From the IMG/VR virus record IMGVR_UViG_3300011126_000046, positions 1 to 22,296 of that record: 22,296 nucleotides of DNA. One strand, written 5' to 3'. The DNA is from a virus. The translations under genes and the position numbers were made by a program. Positions 3,032-17,734 of this stretch are shown one piece after another. The notes under the pieces were generated by a model, which was given only the letters and a program-made list of their open reading frames with translations, was not told where the DNA came from and ran no database searches. Numbering within the stretch: position 1 is the stretch's first letter; each line of letters begins with the position of its first letter.

Positions 3032-4420
3032 ATGCCTGTAAATAGTATTCATCCTGACTATGCTTTATATGCTCCTAGATGGCGCATGACTAGAGACGCG
3101 GCGCAGTCTGATGTGAGTCGTGATACTTATTTGCCAGCGGTGTTTAAAGAGTCAGAGCCGGAGCGTTACAGGGTTTATAAAGAGCGCGCTTATTTCTTAG
3201 GTGTTACCGGGCGCACTGAGAAAGCCATGAAAGGTATGGTATTTCGCAAGCCTGCTGTTTATAACCTGCCAAGCCAACTTGATTACTTGCTAGAAGACTT
3301 TGACGGTTCTGGTCAGAGTGCTGAGCAAATAGCAAAGGATGCTCTTAGTGGACTACTTGAAACGCGTAGGCATTTACTCTTAGTCGATTACCCAGACGCA
3401 GGTGAAGGTTTAACCGCTGCTGATGAGCGACGCTTAAACCTACGTCCAACTATCGCAAGCTACCCGGCAGAGGCCTTAATTAATTGGCGCTGGGATGGTG
3501 TGAACGGTCAGAGAAAGCTTGTAATGGCTGTTTTGCAGGAGCAAGACAATAAGGCGCAAGATGAGTTCGACCACGACTATAGAACGATCTATCGCGTTCT
3601 GAGATTGACTGACGGTGTTTATACTCAGCAGATGTATGACGAAAACCATACACCAATGACTGAAGAATATGCGCCTAAAGTTGCTGGCGGTGGTACGTTT
3701 GACCATATCCCGCTACATGGTGTACGAGAGTTAGAGAACCCGCCTCTTTATGATATTGCCAAGGTTAATATTGCCCACCATAGAAATATTGCCGACCTTG
3801 AAGATGCTGCTTATGTTGTAGGGCAGCCAATGGCACACCTCAACTTAGGTGAGACTAGCCCGGAAGAATTCAAGGAGAATAATCCTGACGGTGTTAAGTT
3901 TGGTAGCCGTCAAGGTATTGTAACTCGTGGTGGTTCGCTGGATTTAGTTCAGGCTAGTGAAAACAATCTAATTCGTGAAATTAAGCAAGACAAAGAAAAC
4001 GAAATGATCATGCTTGGCGCTCAGCTTATTAGTCGTGGCGGCCAAGCCCAGACAGCGGAAGCTGAAAGGCTACAGGCTGGCGCGGAGGCTTCAGTGCTTG
4101 ATAGCCTAGTCAATGATCTATCTGAAGACATGGAGGCGGCCATAGAGGACGCAGCGCTCTATATTGGTTTACCTGCTGATTCTGTTGAGTATCGTCTGAA
4201 TACAGACTACTGGGAGAAGGGCTTAGACCCGCAGACATTTATGGCTGTTGTGCAGGGTTACACTAGCCGCTTATATGCTCAGACTGACGCCTTAGCAATG
4301 ATTCGCAAGGGCAAGATAGAACTAGACTCAGAACGTGATGACGATCAGATAAAACAGGATATCGCTGAAAGTTTGCTTGATGGCGGTCTTGATGTAGAAT
4401 TAAACAATCAGGTCAGGTGA
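3032..4420 (+). CDS. Portal protein, DUF4055 family
   Basis: The 462-residue protein would form the dodecameric ring at one head vertex through which DNA enters and leaves. The N-terminal pattern HPDYALYAPRW, a charged stretch, then GVTGRTEKAMKGMVFRKP (about 57-74) is what I associate with the DUF4055 portal-like family. A Gln/Ala/Glu-rich helical segment (about 345-360) and a C-terminal acidic region follow. It lies directly after the large terminase and before a scaffold-like gene and the capsid gene, as expected. The ribosome site is weak (AGACGGA). Start chosen because the family usually begins just before the HP-Y motif. Confidence 0.88.
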   Translation: MPVNSIHPDYALYAPRWRMTRDAAQSDVSRDTYLPAVFKESEPERYRVYKERAYFLGVTGRTEKAMKGMVFRKPAVYNLPSQLDYLLEDFDGSGQSAEQIAKDALSGLLETRRHLLLVDYPDAGEGLTAADERRLNLRPTIASYPAEALINWRWDGVNGQRKLVMAVLQEQDNKAQDEFDHDYRTIYRVLRLTDGVYTQQMYDENHTPMTEEYAPKVAGGGTFDHIPLHGVRELENPPLYDIAKVNIAHHRNIADLEDAAYVVGQPMAHLNLGETSPEEFKENNPDGVKFGSRQGIVTRGGSLDLVQASENNLIREIKQDKENEMIMLGAQLISRGGQAQTAEAERLQAGAEASVLDSLVNDLSEDMEAAIEDAALYIGLPADSVEYRLNTDYWEKGLDPQTFMAVVQGYTSRLYAQTDALAMIRKGKIELDSERDDDQIKQDIAESLLDGGLDVELNNQVR

Positions 4421-5136: not shown

Positions 5137-6150
5137 ATGGCTACCACACGTCTATCCGACATCATTGATGTCACAGTATTTCAGGACTTGCCGCAAATCG
5201 ACGGCCCTGAAAAAACAGCGTTCTTTGAATCTGGCATTGCAGTTCGCAATGGCATGATTGATCAGTTCGCAAACGCACCCGGTAAGACTGGCGAGCTTCC
5301 TTTCTGGAATGACTTAGATGGTTCTACCGAGACCAATTATTCAACCGACAACCCGGCTGATGTTGCTACGCCTCAAAAGATCGACCAAGGCGAACAGATT
5401 TACCGTAAGGCGTTCGTGAACCAAGGTTGGCAGGCTGCTGACTTGGCTTCTGAGATTGCTATGGGCGGTTCAGCTATTGATGCTATCCGTGCGAAGGTTG
5501 ACAAGTACTTTATGCGTCAATGGCAGCGTCGCTTGATTGCTACCACTAACGGTATCCTTGCTGATAACGTGGCGAACGACTCTGGTGATATGGTTGTTGA
5601 TGTTGCTGCTGAGGTAATCGGCTCTCAGACTTCTAGCACTAAGTTCAACCGTGATGTATTCACTGAAGCCGTATACACAATGGGCGATGCCGCTGCTGAT
5701 GGCCTTAGCGCTATTGCGGTTCACTCTCGTGTAATGCAGCAGATGGTTAAGAATGATGACATCGTATATATTCCTGATTCTCAGGGTATGCTGACCATTC
5801 CGACATACATGGGCTTGCGCGTTATCGTTGATGACGGCATGACTGTTACGGCTGGTACTACTAGTGGCTTCAAGTACACCTCTGTACTGTTCGGTGCTGG
5901 TGCGTTTGGTTACGGTGTTGGCTCTCCTGAAGTACCAGTTGAAGTTGAGCGTGAAGCTGCACAGGGTAACGGCGGCGGTATTGAGACCTTGTGGGTTCGT
6001 AACACTTGGATTCTTCACCCGTTCGGCTTTAAAGCAACCGGCACGCCTGCTGGCCAGTCTTTCACACAGGCTGAGCTTGGCACTGCTGCAACCGTTGACC
6101 GTGTATTGGATCGTAAGCTGATTCCGATGGCGTTCTTGACTACTAACTAA
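5137..6150 (+). CDS. Major capsid protein, HK97 fold
   Basis: The 337-residue product starts MATTRLSDIIDVTVF and continues with EKTAFFESGIAV, a pattern found in the Gp13-like group of HK97-fold capsid proteins. It lacks a long N-terminal delta domain, consistent with a separate scaffold gene just upstream. AAGAGGAAA gives a strong ribosome site eight bases before the ATG. The gene is rich in preferred-looking codons and its reverse strand carries a long spurious frame, both common in highly expressed structural genes. The downstream hairpin may stabilise this abundant transcript. Confidence 0.9.
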   Translation: MATTRLSDIIDVTVFQDLPQIDGPEKTAFFESGIAVRNGMIDQFANAPGKTGELPFWNDLDGSTETNYSTDNPADVATPQKIDQGEQIYRKAFVNQGWQAADLASEIAMGGSAIDAIRAKVDKYFMRQWQRRLIATTNGILADNVANDSGDMVVDVAAEVIGSQTSSTKFNRDVFTEAVYTMGDAAADGLSAIAVHSRVMQQMVKNDDIVYIPDSQGMLTIPTYMGLRVIVDDGMTVTAGTTSGFKYTSVLFGAGAFGYGVGSPEVPVEVEREAAQGNGGGIETLWVRNTWILHPFGFKATGTPAGQSFTQAELGTAATVDRVLDRKLIPMAFLTTN

Positions 6151-8243: not shown

Positions 8244-8630
8244 ATGAATAACAGTCAGTTGCTTGAATCAGTATTCGACTTAACTAGCGAAGTTGCGGAA
8301 GCCCTAACGTTGACGGTTGCCTATCCGGGCAAAAAGTTCACACCTCCGGATTCTGGCGAATGGCTAGAGCTATCGACGACAGCGAACGACTTACAGCCAG
8401 ACATTAGTGGAAGCTCAGTGTTTCGTCGCGGCATTTTTCAGATAAACGTGTGCGGAAGGCCTGACAAGAATCCATTGGTGCTTTATGGATACGCTGACAC
8501 CATCGCTGCAATGATTCCTAAAGGCCCTAATGATGCAGGATTCACAATCACTAACAACCCAACCGTTAGCTCACTAATAGAGCTTGACGACCGCGTTATT
8601 TTACCTATTACAATCACTTATTCCGAGTGA
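8244..8630 (+). CDS. Tail terminator-like protein (DUF4128-like)
   Basis: The 128-residue product has an N-terminal helix (NNSQLLESVFDLTSEVAEAL), then beta strands with GEWLELS, FRRGIFQINV and a C-terminal strand pair, as in DUF4128/gpU-like tail terminators. Such proteins cap the tail tube and set its final length before head joining. AGAGG is five bases before the ATG. It lies between the neck gene and the tail tube gene, where a terminator is expected. Family assignment is from pattern and order rather than a unique motif. Confidence 0.72.
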   Translation: MNNSQLLESVFDLTSEVAEALTLTVAYPGKKFTPPDSGEWLELSTTANDLQPDISGSSVFRRGIFQINVCGRPDKNPLVLYGYADTIAAMIPKGPNDAGFTITNNPTVSSLIELDDRVILPITITYSE

Positions 8631-8636
8631 TACAAT
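8608..8636 (+). promoter_or_regulatory. Candidate extended -10 promoter for the tail genes
   Basis: TGATACAAT (8628-8636) is an extended -10 with one change from consensus. TTACAA (8608-8613, 3 of 6) lies 17 bases upstream. The TGA is also the stop of the previous gene. The only clear gap between connector and tail genes follows, with a strong ribosome site, so extra transcription of the abundant tube gene is plausible. Confidence 0.35.
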
Positions 8637-8663
8637 TACGACAACTAAATAGGAGGGCGCGAA

Positions 8664-9116
8664 ATGCCTGACAAGTTAACCAATATTGGTACTACCATCG
8701 CAGTGAGCACCACACTCCCGGCTACTGAAAACGTTGCGGGCTATGGTGCTTTAACATTTACCGAAGTTCTTGGTGTTGGCTCTATTCCAGAGTTTGGCGG
8801 TGAGTCTGAGGTGCTAACCTACGTTGATGTCAAAGATGGCGTAACGCAGAAGGCCCACGGCGGTCGTGACTTCGGTGGCGGCACTCTGTCTTACCGTATT
8901 ATCGAAGCTGATACAGGCCAAGGTATCCTTGAAGATGCTGATGACAATCAAACTACGCTGGCGTTTGAGCTTACCCGCTCTACAGGTCTGATTGAGTACT
9001 TCCAAGGTATCGTAACCAGCTCGCGTACTTCTGAAGCGTCTTCTGGTAATACTTATACTCGAAACTCAGCCATTCAAGCCTCTACCGCTATCATCAAGGA
9101 TGCATCTGGCGTATGA
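8664..9116 (+). CDS. Major tail (tube) protein
   Basis: The 150-residue product starts MPDKLTNIGTTIAVSTTLP and is beta-rich, with the pattern EVLTYVDVKDGVTQKAHGGR followed by GGTLSYRI. This agrees with tube proteins of the lambda gpV type, whose hexameric rings stack to make the tail tube. The ribosome site TAGGAGGG is the strongest in the window, fitting a product needed in many copies. The next gene starts in its stop codon (ATGA) and is the tail chaperone, the invariant neighbour of the tube gene. Confidence 0.85.
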   Translation: MPDKLTNIGTTIAVSTTLPATENVAGYGALTFTEVLGVGSIPEFGGESEVLTYVDVKDGVTQKAHGGRDFGGGTLSYRIIEADTGQGILEDADDNQTTLAFELTRSTGLIEYFQGIVTSSRTSEASSGNTYTRNSAIQASTAIIKDASGV

Positions 9117-9496
9117 AGCTGAGCGAGCTTAAAGCCCAGTCAGAAGTCATCACTCCCCTTCATCCTGAATTGGGTGATGTGGGGGTGACGTTTACTGTCT
9201 GTAGTCCGTTTAGCCGTGAGTTTAACGCTGCAACGTCTCGCATTGCGCCGGAGCTGCTGAAAGACTCTGACGACTACGCTCGTGACTGGGAGATATTTCA
9301 GGCTGAGTCTCTGATGCTGGATTGGTCAGGCATTGAAGATGGCGATGAACCGCTCGCATTCAGCCCTGAGAAGTGTTCTGAGTTGTTCCGCGATCCTGAT
9401 TACCACTGGATGGTTTCTCAGCTTCTTGAGCATATCTCAAAAAAAAAGGGCTATTTGCAAACCATTTCAAACAGATTCGCACATTTACGCAAGTAG
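9113..9496 (+). CDS. Tail assembly chaperone, upstream frame (gpG-like)
   Basis: The 127-residue product lies between tube and tape measure genes and is acidic and helical, as usual for the shorter tail chaperone. It contains FTVCSPFSREFNAATSR and DWEIFQAESLMLDWSGI. Near its end is a run of nine A then GGG (9439-9450), which is read as Ser-Lys-Lys-Lys-Gly here. A second frame opens after this run and continues 111 residues, giving the longer chaperone. The 15 residues after the run in this frame (YLQTISNRFAHLRK) are what non-shifting ribosomes add. Confidence 0.85.
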   Translation: MKLSELKAQSEVITPLHPELGDVGVTFTVCSPFSREFNAATSRIAPELLKDSDDYARDWEIFQAESLMLDWSGIEDGDEPLAFSPEKCSELFRDPDYHWMVSQLLEHISKKKGYLQTISNRFAHLRK

Positions 9497-9783
9497 ATGG
9501 ATTCCTGAATTCGTCTTACGATGGCGAAAAGCAGCGTTTTAGCGAATGGACTACGAGCCTGCCGGACAAAGGCGGGCTTTCTTATTTATACGACTGGCTG
9601 ACTCAGATTGGTATAGGCTCAGAGCCGATAGGCTGGACAGAGCTTAAGGCATGGTCGGATATAACCGGCATTGTACCGACTCCTGACGAAGCAACGGCTG
9701 TGATACAATTATCACGCGCTTGGTCTAACGAGTTTGTCAAAGGCCGAAGTAAAGACGCCTTCCCACCTTGGCTACCGGAGTGA
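9113..9783 (+). CDS. Tail assembly chaperone, -1 frameshift product (gpGT-like)
   Basis: If ribosomes slip back one base on A AAA AAG (9442-9448), translation joins the frame from 9448 to the TGA at 9781-9783. The fusion has about 223 residues: 112 from the upstream frame and 111 from the shifted one. The shifted part includes WTELKAWSDITGIVPTPDEA and ends in DAFPPWLPE, which looks like the C-terminal domain of phage tail chaperones. That part has no ATG or usable start of its own, no ribosome site, and ends five bases before the tape measure gene. In lambda the equivalent G-T fusion bridges tube protein and tape measure. Confidence 0.8.
9439..9448 (+). promoter_or_regulatory. Programmed -1 ribosomal frameshift slippery site
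   Basis: Nine A (9439-9447) followed by G contain both A AAA AAA and A AAA AAG in the upstream frame (codons TCA AAA AAA AAG). A AAA AAG is the most slip-prone heptamer in Escherichia coli. No strong downstream stem was seen by eye; a weak stimulator cannot be excluded. Confidence 0.8.
9700..9715 (+). promoter_or_regulatory. Inverted repeat with embedded extended -10, before the tape measure gene
   Basis: GTGATA and TATCAC are perfect six-base complements around CAAT. The same bases include TGATACAAT, the extended -10 string seen at 8628. It lies in the shifted chaperone frame (A-V-I-Q-L-S), 72 bases before the tape measure start, so coding constraint could explain it. Confidence 0.2.
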
Positions 9784-9787
9784 TTTT

Positions 9788-11560
9788 ATGGTTGATGTAG
9801 CACAATTAGCAATTAGAGTAGATTCCTCCGATGTTTCAGCCTCAGTCATGCAACTTGACCGCATGGATAAGAGCGCAACAAAGGCCGCAACAAGCACTGA
9901 CAAGCTAAGCAAGGCCGGGAAGAATAACTCTTTCGCAATGCGTCAAACGGCTATGCAGCTATCACAGGTTGCTTCTCAGGGTGCTGTTACTGGTAACTAT
10001 ATTCAAGCACTTGCAATTCAGTTGCCGGATTTGGCGTTAGCTCTTGGGCCGGTTGGTATTATTGCTGGTGCCGTGGCTGGCTCACTTGCTGGCCCACTTA
10101 TTAGCGCTCTGTCTAATTCAAGCAAAGGCGTTGATGAGCTTAACGAGATTACTACCAAGTTAGCCAAAACCTTTACAGATGCCTCTGATGGTTCTTATAA
10201 ATTCTCTGAAGAGCTTGTGCGACTTGCCCGCGTATCAGAAGAGATTGCACGCCTAAAAGTAACCTCAGGTATTGAGGATGCGCGCCGCAGTATTTTAGGC
10301 ATTGGTGAAGCCCTTAGTGATACCTATTCGGATATTAAAGACACGCTCTCCCTGACTGTAGAAGAGTCAAAGCGATTATCTGAGGCTGTATCTGGTGCTG
10401 TACAGAGTAAAGACATAAGCGACTATGACGCCTTAGCGGGTGTTATCGCTGATTTAGAATCTAAGTATCAGTCTGCCACTGTCGCAGCTCGTGAGAATCT
10501 GTTAGCACTAAGAGAGTCTAGCTCTGGCGGCCTTATTGACCGCAAGCGAATTCAGGAGGCGAGCGAGGAATACCTACGCCTCAGAAACTCCCTCAATGGT
10601 ATCCGTGGTGAGTTTACCGATTTAATTCAGAGCGGTGCTGAATCTGCTTTAGTATTTAGTCGGCTAACAAGTGCTGGTGATGACTTCGATGACATGCTTC
10701 AGCGTTCAACCCAGAACGTAGACGACCTACAAACAGCGATACCTAAAACATCTTATACTTTGGCGGATTGGTTCGAGGAACAAAACGAGCGCATCGAGAA
10801 AGAACTAAAAGAAAGAGAAATGCTGGTCAAAGCTGCGCAAACAAAATTCAGTCGCTTAATTACTCAAGACGTGATGGCTGTTATGAGTCCAGACCAGCAA
10901 GCCGCACAGATGCTTGGTCAGACTATGCAGCAATATCAACAGATGCTAGATGACCGTCTAATCTCAGATGAGCAGTACTTAGCAGCCAAGGAAGCCGCAG
11001 AGACTCGCTATTATGAGCGCATTAAAGACCTTAGAGAGCAAGATAAGCAGCTTCAGCTTGGACTAAATGAGGCAACTCTTAATGGCGCGTCTCAACTGTT
11101 CGGAAACCTTGCAGAGATAGCAAAAGCAGGCGGTGAAGATAGCTTTGAGGCGTGGAAACGAATGGCTCAGGCTCAGGCGCTGGTAAACGTAGCTCTTGGT
11201 ATTAGTAACGCATTGGCAACGGTTCCAGCCCCGTTGAACTTTGCTGTAGCAGGTACAGTGGCTGCGATGGGTGCTGTCCAGATAGCGCAAATCGAACAGC
11301 AGCAATACCAAGCTCGTGAGTATGGCGGGCAGGTTAAAGCTGGATCGTCTTACTTGGTTGGTGAACGCGGCCCTGAAATGATTACAATGGGTGGTAACGG
11401 CAATGTAACGCCCACTAAAGATGTAAACACCGGCAGCAATACTACAGTGGTTTTACAGGTGTCAACCGGCGTACAATCAACTGTGAGGGCTGAGATGGCT
11501 AGTATGATGCCTATGATAGCTAAAACCGTTCAGCGTGTAGTGGGAGCACAAAGACGATGA
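9788..11560 (+). CDS. Tape measure protein
   Basis: The 590-residue product sets tail length and probably takes part in DNA entry. It has a polar helical N-terminus, a hydrophobic Gly/Ala-rich segment at about residues 70-105 (LALGPVGIIAGAVAGSLAGP) that can cross a membrane, long charged coiled coil in the middle, a second Ala-rich hydrophobic segment at about 478-510, and the C-terminal VGERGPEMI motif common to tape measures. It follows the chaperone pair. It is short for the family, implying a short tail of roughly 90 nm by the usual 1.5 angstrom per residue rule. GGAG seven bases before this ATG decides the start over a TTG at 9734. Confidence 0.92.
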   Translation: MVDVAQLAIRVDSSDVSASVMQLDRMDKSATKAATSTDKLSKAGKNNSFAMRQTAMQLSQVASQGAVTGNYIQALAIQLPDLALALGPVGIIAGAVAGSLAGPLISALSNSSKGVDELNEITTKLAKTFTDASDGSYKFSEELVRLARVSEEIARLKVTSGIEDARRSILGIGEALSDTYSDIKDTLSLTVEESKRLSEAVSGAVQSKDISDYDALAGVIADLESKYQSATVAARENLLALRESSSGGLIDRKRIQEASEEYLRLRNSLNGIRGEFTDLIQSGAESALVFSRLTSAGDDFDDMLQRSTQNVDDLQTAIPKTSYTLADWFEEQNERIEKELKEREMLVKAAQTKFSRLITQDVMAVMSPDQQAAQMLGQTMQQYQQMLDDRLISDEQYLAAKEAAETRYYERIKDLREQDKQLQLGLNEATLNGASQLFGNLAEIAKAGGEDSFEAWKRMAQAQALVNVALGISNALATVPAPLNFAVAGTVAAMGAVQIAQIEQQQYQAREYGGQVKAGSSYLVGERGPEMITMGGNGNVTPTKDVNTGSNTTVVLQVSTGVQSTVRAEMASMMPMIAKTVQRVVGAQRR

Positions 11561-12141
11561 TTGTAGAGATTACCGAAAAGCCTGACTCTTTCACTCCTGT
11601 ATTGGTGATCAACTCAAACACCTTTACGTCGTCACTAAACGCATTTAGACAGGACGCGGTATTACCCGGCTCACGCTGGGCGGCGTCATTTACTTGGACT
11701 AACCGCAAAGGCGCGGCGGCTCGAACATTGACAGGTCAACTTGCCAAACTACTAGGACCAGTGAATACGTTTAAGATTGCATTGCCTGTTAGTCTTATCG
11801 GCACTGGTTCTGGCACTGGTTTAGTAAACGGAGCAAGCCAGACAGGCTCGGAGATCATAACTAACGGTTGGGATGTCTCTCAGGACTTACTGTTAGCCGC
11901 TGGTGACTGGATTGAAATAGACCAAGCTGTTTACCTAGTCACTGACGATGTTGCCTCTGACGGCTCAGGAAACGCAACAGTATCAATAAGCCCGCCTATT
12001 CGCAGAAGTCCGCCTGATAATGCTGGCGTTTCTGTATCGCCATCGTTTTACATGAAGACGACAAAGAATGACGCGGCCCAATTCTCTTTTGGTGGTGCGC
12101 AAGTTTTCGCAACATCATTAGACGGCTTGGAGATTGATTAA
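11557..12141 (+). CDS. Tail-tip/minor tail protein (distal tail position)
   Basis: The 194-residue product follows the tape measure gene directly (ATGA overlap) and is beta-rich, with WAASFTWTNRKGAAARTLTG near residues 42-61 and PVNTFKIALP. Its position equals that of lambda gpM or a small distal tail protein that closes the tube end. No enzymatic motif, signal peptide or membrane helix is seen. It is coupled to the next gene by TAATG. The structural role is inferred from order and size. Confidence 0.7.
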   Translation: MIVEITEKPDSFTPVLVINSNTFTSSLNAFRQDAVLPGSRWAASFTWTNRKGAAARTLTGQLAKLLGPVNTFKIALPVSLIGTGSGTGLVNGASQTGSEIITNGWDVSQDLLLAAGDWIEIDQAVYLVTDDVASDGSGNATVSISPPIRRSPPDNAGVSVSPSFYMKTTKNDAAQFSFGGAQVFATSLDGLEID

Positions 12142-12716
12142 TGCCTAGAACCATTGATGCTGCGACAATAGCAGCAATACAAGACCCGCTTGTTCGATGG
12201 GTAGTTATTGTGCGCATTGAAACGCCTACGCTGACTCTGTTGATGACATCTGGCGATAACGACCTCACTTATGATTCCGAGGTCTACACACCCGGCACGC
12301 TGGGCAATATATCCCCGGTTTCTGAGTCTGGCCTACAAGATTCAGCTATTTCTATCACGTTCTCAGGCGTTGACGTTTCAACTCTAGCCGTTGCCGCTTC
12401 TCAGGACTTCCTTAATAGTCCGACGATGATTAGACTGATTCCGCATGATGAAGACTGGCAGCCTGTGGGCGATGGTATCCTAATGTTTGACGGTTTCACT
12501 TCTGAAGCTCCTTCTATCTCATACGGCAACAAATCAGAAATAGCGGTAGCTTGTAAAGGCAAGTTCGCAGCATTAGACCGTAAACGATCAGAGCGATATT
12601 CTGACGCAGAGCAACAGCGAAAATATCCGGGTGACTTGGGTATGCAATATGCGGCAAGTGTGGCTAATAAAGACGTTATTTGGCCCGCTTCTAGTTTCTT
12701 CACGAGGGAAAGTTAA
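12141..12716 (+). CDS. Tail-tip hub-like protein (gpL/BR0599-like)
   Basis: The 191-residue protein has beta-rich N-terminal strands and a later segment LMFDGFTSEAPSISYG followed by an Arg-rich stretch LDRKRSERYSDAEQQRKYPG (about 145-164). The motif RYSDAEQQRKYPGD resembles phage proteins of the DUF2163/BR0599 type that form the tail hub upstream of the host-specificity protein. It lacks an obvious C-terminal metal-binding extension, so it may be a minimal form. GGAG lies eight bases before the ATG, and the stop overlaps the J-like gene (TAATG). Confidence 0.7.
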   Translation: MPRTIDAATIAAIQDPLVRWVVIVRIETPTLTLLMTSGDNDLTYDSEVYTPGTLGNISPVSESGLQDSAISITFSGVDVSTLAVAASQDFLNSPTMIRLIPHDEDWQPVGDGILMFDGFTSEAPSISYGNKSEIAVACKGKFAALDRKRSERYSDAEQQRKYPGDLGMQYAASVANKDVIWPASSFFTRES

Positions 12717-16389: not shown

Positions 16390-16715
16390 TGATTATATCT
16401 GTCGCAATATTCACAGCTCATGCTATTTGCACAACTTGTAACGATGGTTGGTTTAGCAATAACCGCCTTGTTTCTGTTGAATATGAGTTGTGGAATGCTT
16501 CGACAATGATAAATAGTTATGATTCTAGGTCTTTCGTATTATCTAAAAGAGTAGAGAAAACAGATAGTTATGGTTACTACATTGGCTTGGCCACTGGGTA
16601 CGATGAACGTTATTGGCCTATCATCCCGGTGTTTGCGCCATATTACAACATAGGTGACTTTCGAGTTACTACTATGTCAGAGTCAATCGCAATTTCTTAC
16701 TCAGTGGAGTTCTAA
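16389..16715 (+). CDS. Orphan 108-residue protein, unknown function
   Basis: The start ATG overlaps the fibre gene stop (TAATG) and no good ribosome site is visible, so expression is probably coupled. The product is Tyr/Phe/Trp-rich with two Cys near its N-terminus (ICTTCNDGW) and looks beta-structured. The first 14 residues are hydrophobic, but there is no clear cleavage site or second charged region to call a signal peptide. The gene is the most AT-rich here (17 G/C of 60 in 16501-16560). It might be a second receptor-binding subunit, a fibre chaperone or an attachment-linked protein. No family is recognised. Confidence 0.6.
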   Translation: MIISVAIFTAHAICTTCNDGWFSNNRLVSVEYELWNASTMINSYDSRSFVLSKRVEKTDSYGYYIGLATGYDERYWPIIPVFAPYYNIGDFRVTTMSESIAISYSVEF

Positions 16716-17734
16716 TGACAGCAAAGATAACGTCAGAGCAAGCTAGAGTTATGCGCCGCGAGTTTGAGCGTGCTATTTCTGCCGTTCGCGATTCCGTTCG
16801 ATTGTCTGACGTTGAGAGTCTTATTCGTGCCAATGACATTGACGGCTTGATTCGGCTGCTAGGTCTTAACGCTTCGACATTTGAGCCGCTAGAGAACTCT
16901 ATCCGTGATTCTTTTCGCGTGGGTGGTAACTACACTGCTGAGATACTGAGTCCTATCTACGTTGATGGTTTGGGTAATATCGCTTTCACCTTCTCGATGC
17001 AAGCCACTGAAGCTACGGCATGGCTATCTGCCAACGCTGCTAAGTTAGTCACTGAAATGGCCGAAGAACAACAGCAGATGATACGCGAGCGGCTAGCTTA
17101 CTTTTTACTGAAAGGCACCGGCCCGCGCACCGCAGCACTAGACCTTGTAGGACGCATTGACACGACGACTGGACAACGAAAAGGCGGCTTTGTAGGACTA
17201 ACAAGCCAACAGGCCGAATGGGTGTCAAACGCCCGCACAGAGCTTGAGACGCTTAACCCTAATTACCTTAACCGTGGCCTGAGAGATAAACGCCTTGATC
17301 CTATCGTTCGAAAAGCCATAGAGAAAGGCGAGTCACTAACGGCCAAGCAGATTGACGCCGCTATAACTTCACTGCAAAACCGCACGCTGAAATACCGTGG
17401 CGATGTCATATCCCGTCACGAATCTATCAAAGCCCTTAGAGCTGGCCAGCACTTATCAATCATGCAAGCCGTTAAGCGTGGCGAAATGGACGCGGGCGAC
17501 GTGACAAAAGAATGGGATGCAACGGGTGACGCACGTACACGCGAAGAGCATTTATTGATGGAAGGCCAGACCGTGCCTTTATTAATGCCGTTCACCTTTC
17601 CGGATGGTTCACGAGCACAGTACCCGTCTGATGACAGCTTAGGAGCACCGGCTAGTAACTTGATACAATGCCGGTGTAAAATAGACTACAGAATTGATTT
17701 TATTGGACGTGCTAAGCGCGTAAGAGGGTTTTAG
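16715..17734 (+). CDS. Minor head (head morphogenesis) protein, Mu F/SPP1 gp7-like
   Basis: The 339-residue protein is helical in its first 240 residues (DVISRHESIKALRAGQH near 230-246) and carries the family's C-terminal signature: KEWDATGDARTREEHLLMEGQ at about 265-285, then PDGSRAQYPSDDS and IQCRCKIDY near 317-325. Relatives sit inside heads near the portal and help assembly or DNA ejection. The gene normally follows the portal gene, but here it lies about 12 kb downstream between fibre and tailspike genes. Base composition is like the head and tail genes (34 G/C of 60 in 17461-17520). The start overlaps the previous stop with GTGGAG upstream. Confidence 0.85.
   Translation: MTAKITSEQARVMRREFERAISAVRDSVRLSDVESLIRANDIDGLIRLLGLNASTFEPLENSIRDSFRVGGNYTAEILSPIYVDGLGNIAFTFSMQATEATAWLSANAAKLVTEMAEEQQQMIRERLAYFLLKGTGPRTAALDLVGRIDTTTGQRKGGFVGLTSQQAEWVSNARTELETLNPNYLNRGLRDKRLDPIVRKAIEKGESLTAKQIDAAITSLQNRTLKYRGDVISRHESIKALRAGQHLSIMQAVKRGEMDAGDVTKEWDATGDARTREEHLLMEGQTVPLLMPFTFPDGSRAQYPSDDSLGAPASNLIQCRCKIDYRIDFIGRAKRVRGF

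Follow-up and report, generated by a model that had tools for sequence, protein, structure and literature searches.

The question raised by this locus is how a second reading frame that overlaps a phage tail assembly chaperone gene, and has no start codon of its own, comes to be translated, and whether the ribosome or RNA polymerase would be the slipping agent. The DNA analyzed here (hereafter the window) is a virus record of 22,296 bases, given as one strand, in which the gene order runs head-to-tail: terminase, portal, major head protein, head-tail adaptor, neck, tail terminator, tail tube, the G/T unit, tape measure, distal tail protein, tail protein and J-like tail fibre. The G/T pair is flanked by the tail tube gene on one side and the tape measure gene on the other, as is characteristic of lambda-type units (Table 1). 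The stop codon of the tail tube gene overlaps the start of G (ATGA), and a gap of four bases separates the end of T at 9783 from the tape measure ATG at 9788, in line with a preliminary description that had the second frame ending just before the tape measure gene. The tape measure protein is the expected client of the G/T chaperones. The window contained no tRNA gene and no match to Rfam.

Table 1. Features of the G/T region, in coordinates of the window
Feature	Position	Strand	Match or remark
Major tail (tube) protein, gene before G	8664..9116	+	PHROG 158 major tail protein, E 7.5e-12
G, tail assembly chaperone, zero frame, 127 aa	9113..9496	+	PHROG 313, E 1.6e-12
Putative slip site, A9 then G	9439..9448	+	zero frame TCA AAA AAA AAG GGC; A AAA AAG at 9442-9448
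T, -1 frame extension, 111 codons + TGA	9448..9783	+	no standard start before GTG 9700
Tape measure protein	9788..11560	+	PHROG 1538 tail length tape measure protein, E 1.7e-34

Outside the G/T region, a Phage Mu F-like protein (PF04233) is encoded at 16715-17734, far from the head genes, with the tail fibre region on one side and a tailspike-like beta-helix protein on the other. The major head protein (5137-6150) has relatives that are up to 84% identical and were found in 63 contigs. Recognisable tail genes (compare 8244-12716 in the window) were present in a minority of these contigs. The two modules, head and tail, may differ in their history, although many of the contigs are short.

The run of nine A occupies 9439-9447, near the end of the G open reading frame, and is followed by GGG at 9448-9450. 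Three overlapping heptamers are in phase with the G codons, namely A AAA AAA at 9439, A AAA AAG at 9442 and A AAG GGC at 9445, so that a slippery heptamer lies in phase within the overlap of the two frames. The -1 frame is open from stop to stop over 9430-9783 (118 codons including the stop) and is closed by the TGA at 9781-9783. Counted from 9448 it provides 111 codons, and the fusion would comprise 112 + 111 = 223 residues. The earliest ATG, GTG or TTG in this frame is the GTG at 9700, 27 codons upstream of the stop. Hence, the nine A followed by G near the end of the first chaperone frame, the 111 open codons devoid of an own start and the length of 223 residues for a predicted fusion, all of which had been proposed from the letters of this stretch, were confirmed.

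The run at 9439-9447 is the only run of at least seven A on the plus strand. In dinucleotide shuffles, 26 of 100 sequences contained a run of this kind on one strand or the other, and the nine-A run by itself is therefore not rare. The open -1 frame is more than chance, since none of 3487 windows of 111 codons in the twelve other genes of the record was open in the -1 frame. The comparative evidence for the G/T unit presented below is stronger than these open-frame statistics.

One explanation of the arrangement would be that T is made by re-initiation or from a start of its own past the end of G. Part of T is indeed annotated as a separate gene in the records of Acinetobacter phage Effie and Pseudomonas phage PaMx28. 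However, the T frame of the window offers no ATG, GTG or TTG before 9700, and conservation of T sets in well before that position, which makes an own start highly improbable.

With regard to the identity of the two proteins, PHROG 313 was matched by 19 of the 25 aligned G proteins (at 0.001). The AlphaFold2 model of G (mean pLDDT 84.3) had the HK97 tail assembly chaperone 2ob9_A as its top match among solved structures (Z 5.0, rmsd 3.6, 92 aligned residues); this Z score is itself modest, and the next-ranked structure reached only Z 2.8. Both results point to kinship of G with known tail assembly chaperones. The G profile gave only chance-level matches when searched against the sequences of solved structures. 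For T, the window protein matched PF23812 (Phage_TAC_18) with E 0.0033 and 17.9 bits, under the curated cut-off of 27, and for this reason we name it Phage_TAC_18-like only. The T protein of phage Effie scored 34.5 bits, above the cut-off, and 24 of the 25 aligned T domains matched the family at E 0.01, in agreement with the earlier suggestion that the second frame is chaperone-like. The T model (mean pLDDT 88.1) resembled predicted viral proteins named tape measure chaperone (268 aa) and tail assembly chaperone (259 aa), both of which are long enough for fusions. Among solved structures T had no convincing match, the best being an unrelated protein at Z 4.0.

Comparison of the G and T profiles with the single lambda G and T sequences (hhalign) gave probabilities below 1%. 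Low similarity between phages is reported to be usual in the G/GT system (PMC5009743). NCBIfam held nothing relevant for eight G and T proteins. A DNA search of the region among named phages found no match, and neither did single-protein queries with T, G, the protein at 12141-12713 and the tape measure protein against viral and genome contigs, nor a search of genome contigs with the alignment A1. The relatives analyzed below were obtained through the major head protein and through alignments, and were complemented by named phages.

T-like places were examined in the window, L002-L023, L032, L040, L042, L046, L053, L054, L061, L082 and L095-L126. These 63 rows correspond to 60 distinct contigs or records, since L061 and L103, L082 and L102, and L046 and L117 are the same contigs. 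L005, L006 and L008 were omitted from the frame count, which reduced it from 60 to 57: re-inspection showed that L005 and L008 lack a G-like partner, and L006 was dropped because its ORF layout is identical to that of L005. L024-L026 (annotated records with G or tape measure matches), L091 and L094 also stood outside the count. Counting the window, 57 contigs or records have a G partner. In 56 of them T was in the -1 frame of G; these 56 include near-identical contigs such as L098, L099 and L101. The sole exception was PaMx28 (L011), with T in the +1 frame. L012 was counted as -1 from a separate inspection.

A slippery heptamer of the form XXXYYYZ was found in phase within the overlap in 29 of 33 representatives (T identity below 70%), against an expectation of 2.2 derived from equally long windows elsewhere in G. 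The remaining two phases yielded 7 and 9 such cases, numbers inflated because some runs are slippery in two or more phases. The commonest heptamers in the relatives were T TTT TTC, A AAT TTT and T TTT TTT, and four of the 33 representatives (L004, L021, L046 and L053) had no canonical heptamer. The input of this survey was 56 rows picked for having a -1 partner, among them both L046 and L117 but neither L011 nor L012, and its "56 of 56" in the -1 frame is a consequence of that selection rather than an independent count. In lambda, used as a positive control, GGGAAAG was recovered in phase with T in the -1 frame, and the record of Acinetobacter phage DMU1 annotates the join as gpGT.

Several individual loci deserve mention. 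In PaMx28 the T domain stands in a +1 relation to the annotated G frame, at a T run at about 1630-1740; either the deposited run differs by one base or the exception is genuine. In Acinetobacter phages MD-2021a (L002) and Effie (L003), T is annotated from an internal start only (3477-4321), and downstream of the G-T pair come a short gene and the terminase, where the tape measure gene would be expected. The T-like proteins of L005, L006 and L008 are encoded behind a different protein and possibly have a start of their own; they are perhaps gene-transfer-agent-like. A weak T match in L093 contains one in-frame TGA.

Substitutions among close relatives were examined in the part of T beyond the G stop. 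Between L102 and L103 there were 17 synonymous and 7 non-synonymous differences (dS 0.36, dN 0.031), and between L095 and L096 there were 27 and 12, respectively (dS 0.63, dN 0.055). Judging from these patterns, T evolves in close relatives as a protein in its own frame under purifying selection, and G is constrained too. Across the 46 bases that start inside the run and end at the G stop, L098, L100, L102 and L103 showed 0-1 differences, compared with 24-29 in the first 300 bases of G, which fits two overlapping reading frames.

The relation of the frames in 56 of 57 cases, the heptamers in 29 of 33 representatives, the purifying selection on T and the gpGT join of DMU1 together support -1 recoding. 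It is very probable that the unit is of the lambda G/GT type, recoded in the -1 direction into GT, in a long-tailed lambda-like phage. The -1 frameshift joining two tail chaperone frames that had been suggested for the window alone is thus supported by its relatives. Most ribosomes would finish G (127 aa) at the stop at 9496, and a minority would slip back by one base at A AAA AAG (9442-9448), inside the nine-A run, and continue in the -1 frame to yield GT, a protein of 223 residues. If lambda is a guide, G and GT would coat the tape measure protein, with the T part recruiting the tail tube protein. The two frames, the tail chaperone homology, the selection and the conserved slippery site are drawn from sequence comparison; the occurrence of the slip, its mainly ribosomal nature, its rate and the roles of both proteins are what we infer. 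Within -1 recoding, the ribosome is probably the main agent. One fixed direction of shift is a criterion for ribosomal frameshifting (PMC3711429), and one direction together with ordinary heptamers, as appears in the wider family, is the pattern taken for it. Points against the main reading are the score of the window T under the PF23812 cut-off, the missing profile match to lambda G and T, the lack of a detected stimulator, the +1 relation in PaMx28, the three loci without a G partner, the representatives without a canonical heptamer and the A AAA AAA of the near relatives, which is the weaker ribosomal site in E. coli.

As to stimulators, RNA folding downstream of the site was ordinary (z -1.15 and -0.39), and the consensus fold of the relatives contained no conserved hairpin close 3' of the site; these results do not support an RNA structure, pseudoknots aside, as a stimulator. 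A GAG 5' of the run was seen by eye in the window as well as in five of the six rows L098-L103, with GAA in L103 and no GAG in L095-L097. We do not claim a Shine-Dalgarno-like stimulator, given its absence from L095-L097 and the GAA in L103. Some frameshift sites of tailed phages are reported to function without stimulators (PMC5009743).

The length of the A run raises the role of RNA polymerase. Exactly nine A were present in the window and in each of the nine contigs of near relatives (L095-L103), whose T domains are 46-50% identical to that of the window. These contigs hold seven distinct G-T sequences in two groups, L098, L099 and L101 sharing the same G-T unit. Together with the window there are three groups (window, L095-L097 and L098-L103), with 62-74% nucleotide identity between groups and 62-63% between the two groups of relatives and the window. 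The codon phase differs, TCA AAA AAA AAG GGC in the window versus GGC AAA AAA AAA GGC in L095-L103, and the run is shifted by one base relative to the codons; T is always in the -1 frame in this nine-A group.

The same contigs bear on the view that sequencing or assembly went wrong in the A run, creating the frame break, and that the real gene is an uninterrupted fusion. Long homopolymers do invite errors, and the record has no known isolate. However, nine contigs of relatives share both the nine A and the -1 relation, and that relation recurs in 56 of 57 cases, mostly at other slippery sites, so that an error is very unlikely to be the explanation.

It is possible, at a probability clearly below that of a mainly ribosomal event, that transcriptional slippage accounts wholly or largely for GT: RNA polymerase would add an A, giving some mRNAs with ten A in which G and T form one ORF. 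The run reaches the length of about nine A or T associated with this process, and in each of the twelve surveyed loci that include the site it was the only A or T run of at least nine. Lysine codons in the window are used near evenly (AAA:AAG, 116:133), so AAG was available and a shorter run would be costless for the protein. The tail chaperones of psiM2 and ul36, which belong to the AAAAAAG cases listed in PMC3483164, have runs of seven and six A, in phase by coordinates. Bacterial RNA polymerase slips efficiently on nine A or T (PMC5009743), and in magnesium chelatase cassettes 7, 9 and 11 A gave 10, 40 and 63% frameshifting (PMC3711429). Since nine A are conserved although a shorter run would suffice for the ribosome, transcriptional slippage is a serious alternative or addition, and it merits more weight than the preliminary description gave it. 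In addition, the AAA AAA AAA GGC of the near relatives provides A AAA AAA, a weaker ribosomal site in E. coli, where A AAA AAG is reported to be far shiftier (PMC5009743).

On the other hand, diverged relatives have ordinary heptamers and keep to a single direction, and shifts in both directions among orthologues, a criterion for transcriptional slippage in PMC3711429, were not observed beyond the +1 of PaMx28. High slippage would yield far more GT than the roughly 30:1 ratio of lambda (PMC5009743). Three AAA codons per group, in two groups, are statistically not strong under near-even usage. The conserved nine A are not proof, because nine A contain an in-phase A AAA AAA whatever the phase, and three groups are few. 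Mainly ribosomal -1 recoding remains our preferred reading of the unit, with RNA polymerase as a possible alternative or second agent at the site. We would only tentatively suggest that in the group of the window recoding has moved from a ribosomal heptamer to nine-A transcriptional slippage or to a dual site, with a G:GT ratio set partly by RNA polymerase and maybe much richer in GT than that of lambda.

Compared with known systems, the unit resembles lambda G/GT in its place between the tail tube and tape measure genes, its -1 extension and an in-phase XXXYYYZ near the end of G, and differs in having A AAA AAG within a nine-A run instead of GGGAAAG and in lacking detectable sequence similarity. 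The likeness to the HK97 tail assembly chaperone (PDB 2ob9) is that of the top solved match of the G model, with 15% identity over the aligned part and a modest Z. Acinetobacter phage DMU1 gpG/gpGT has a related T in the -1 frame and lies between tail and tape measure genes, whereas its slip site is T TTT TTC. The preliminary description presented A AAA AAG as a replacement for GGGAAAG; the site is present, but it is not special in itself, as the heptamer has already been reported for several phages (PMC3483164). The heptamers AAAAAAG and AAAAAAA occur in tail chaperones of Burkholderia phage AH2 and others (PMC3483164) and of Paenibacillus larvae phages (PMC6003738, PMC6256562). In the two AAAAAAG cases inspected, psiM2 and ul36, the runs were shorter than the nine A of the window. 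Homopolymers that join two frames by transcriptional slippage are found in Citrobacter rodentium tssM1 (11 A) and Thermus thermophilus dnaX (nine) (PMC4256274, PMC5009743); unlike the present unit these are not tail chaperones, and slippage was measured there, while here the site is known from its sequence. A -1 slip of this kind is already well known in phages, and the run length is the unusual part.

These results add a further, diverged phage group to the G/GT rule, and they show that several public records leave T domains of the Phage_TAC_18 kind without annotation or annotate them in truncated form. In the open-access literature that was searched we recognised no report of a tail chaperone ratio set by RNA polymerase. 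If it is true that the nine-A run acts in transcription, the ratio of the tail chaperone products in these phages would be set by RNA polymerase.
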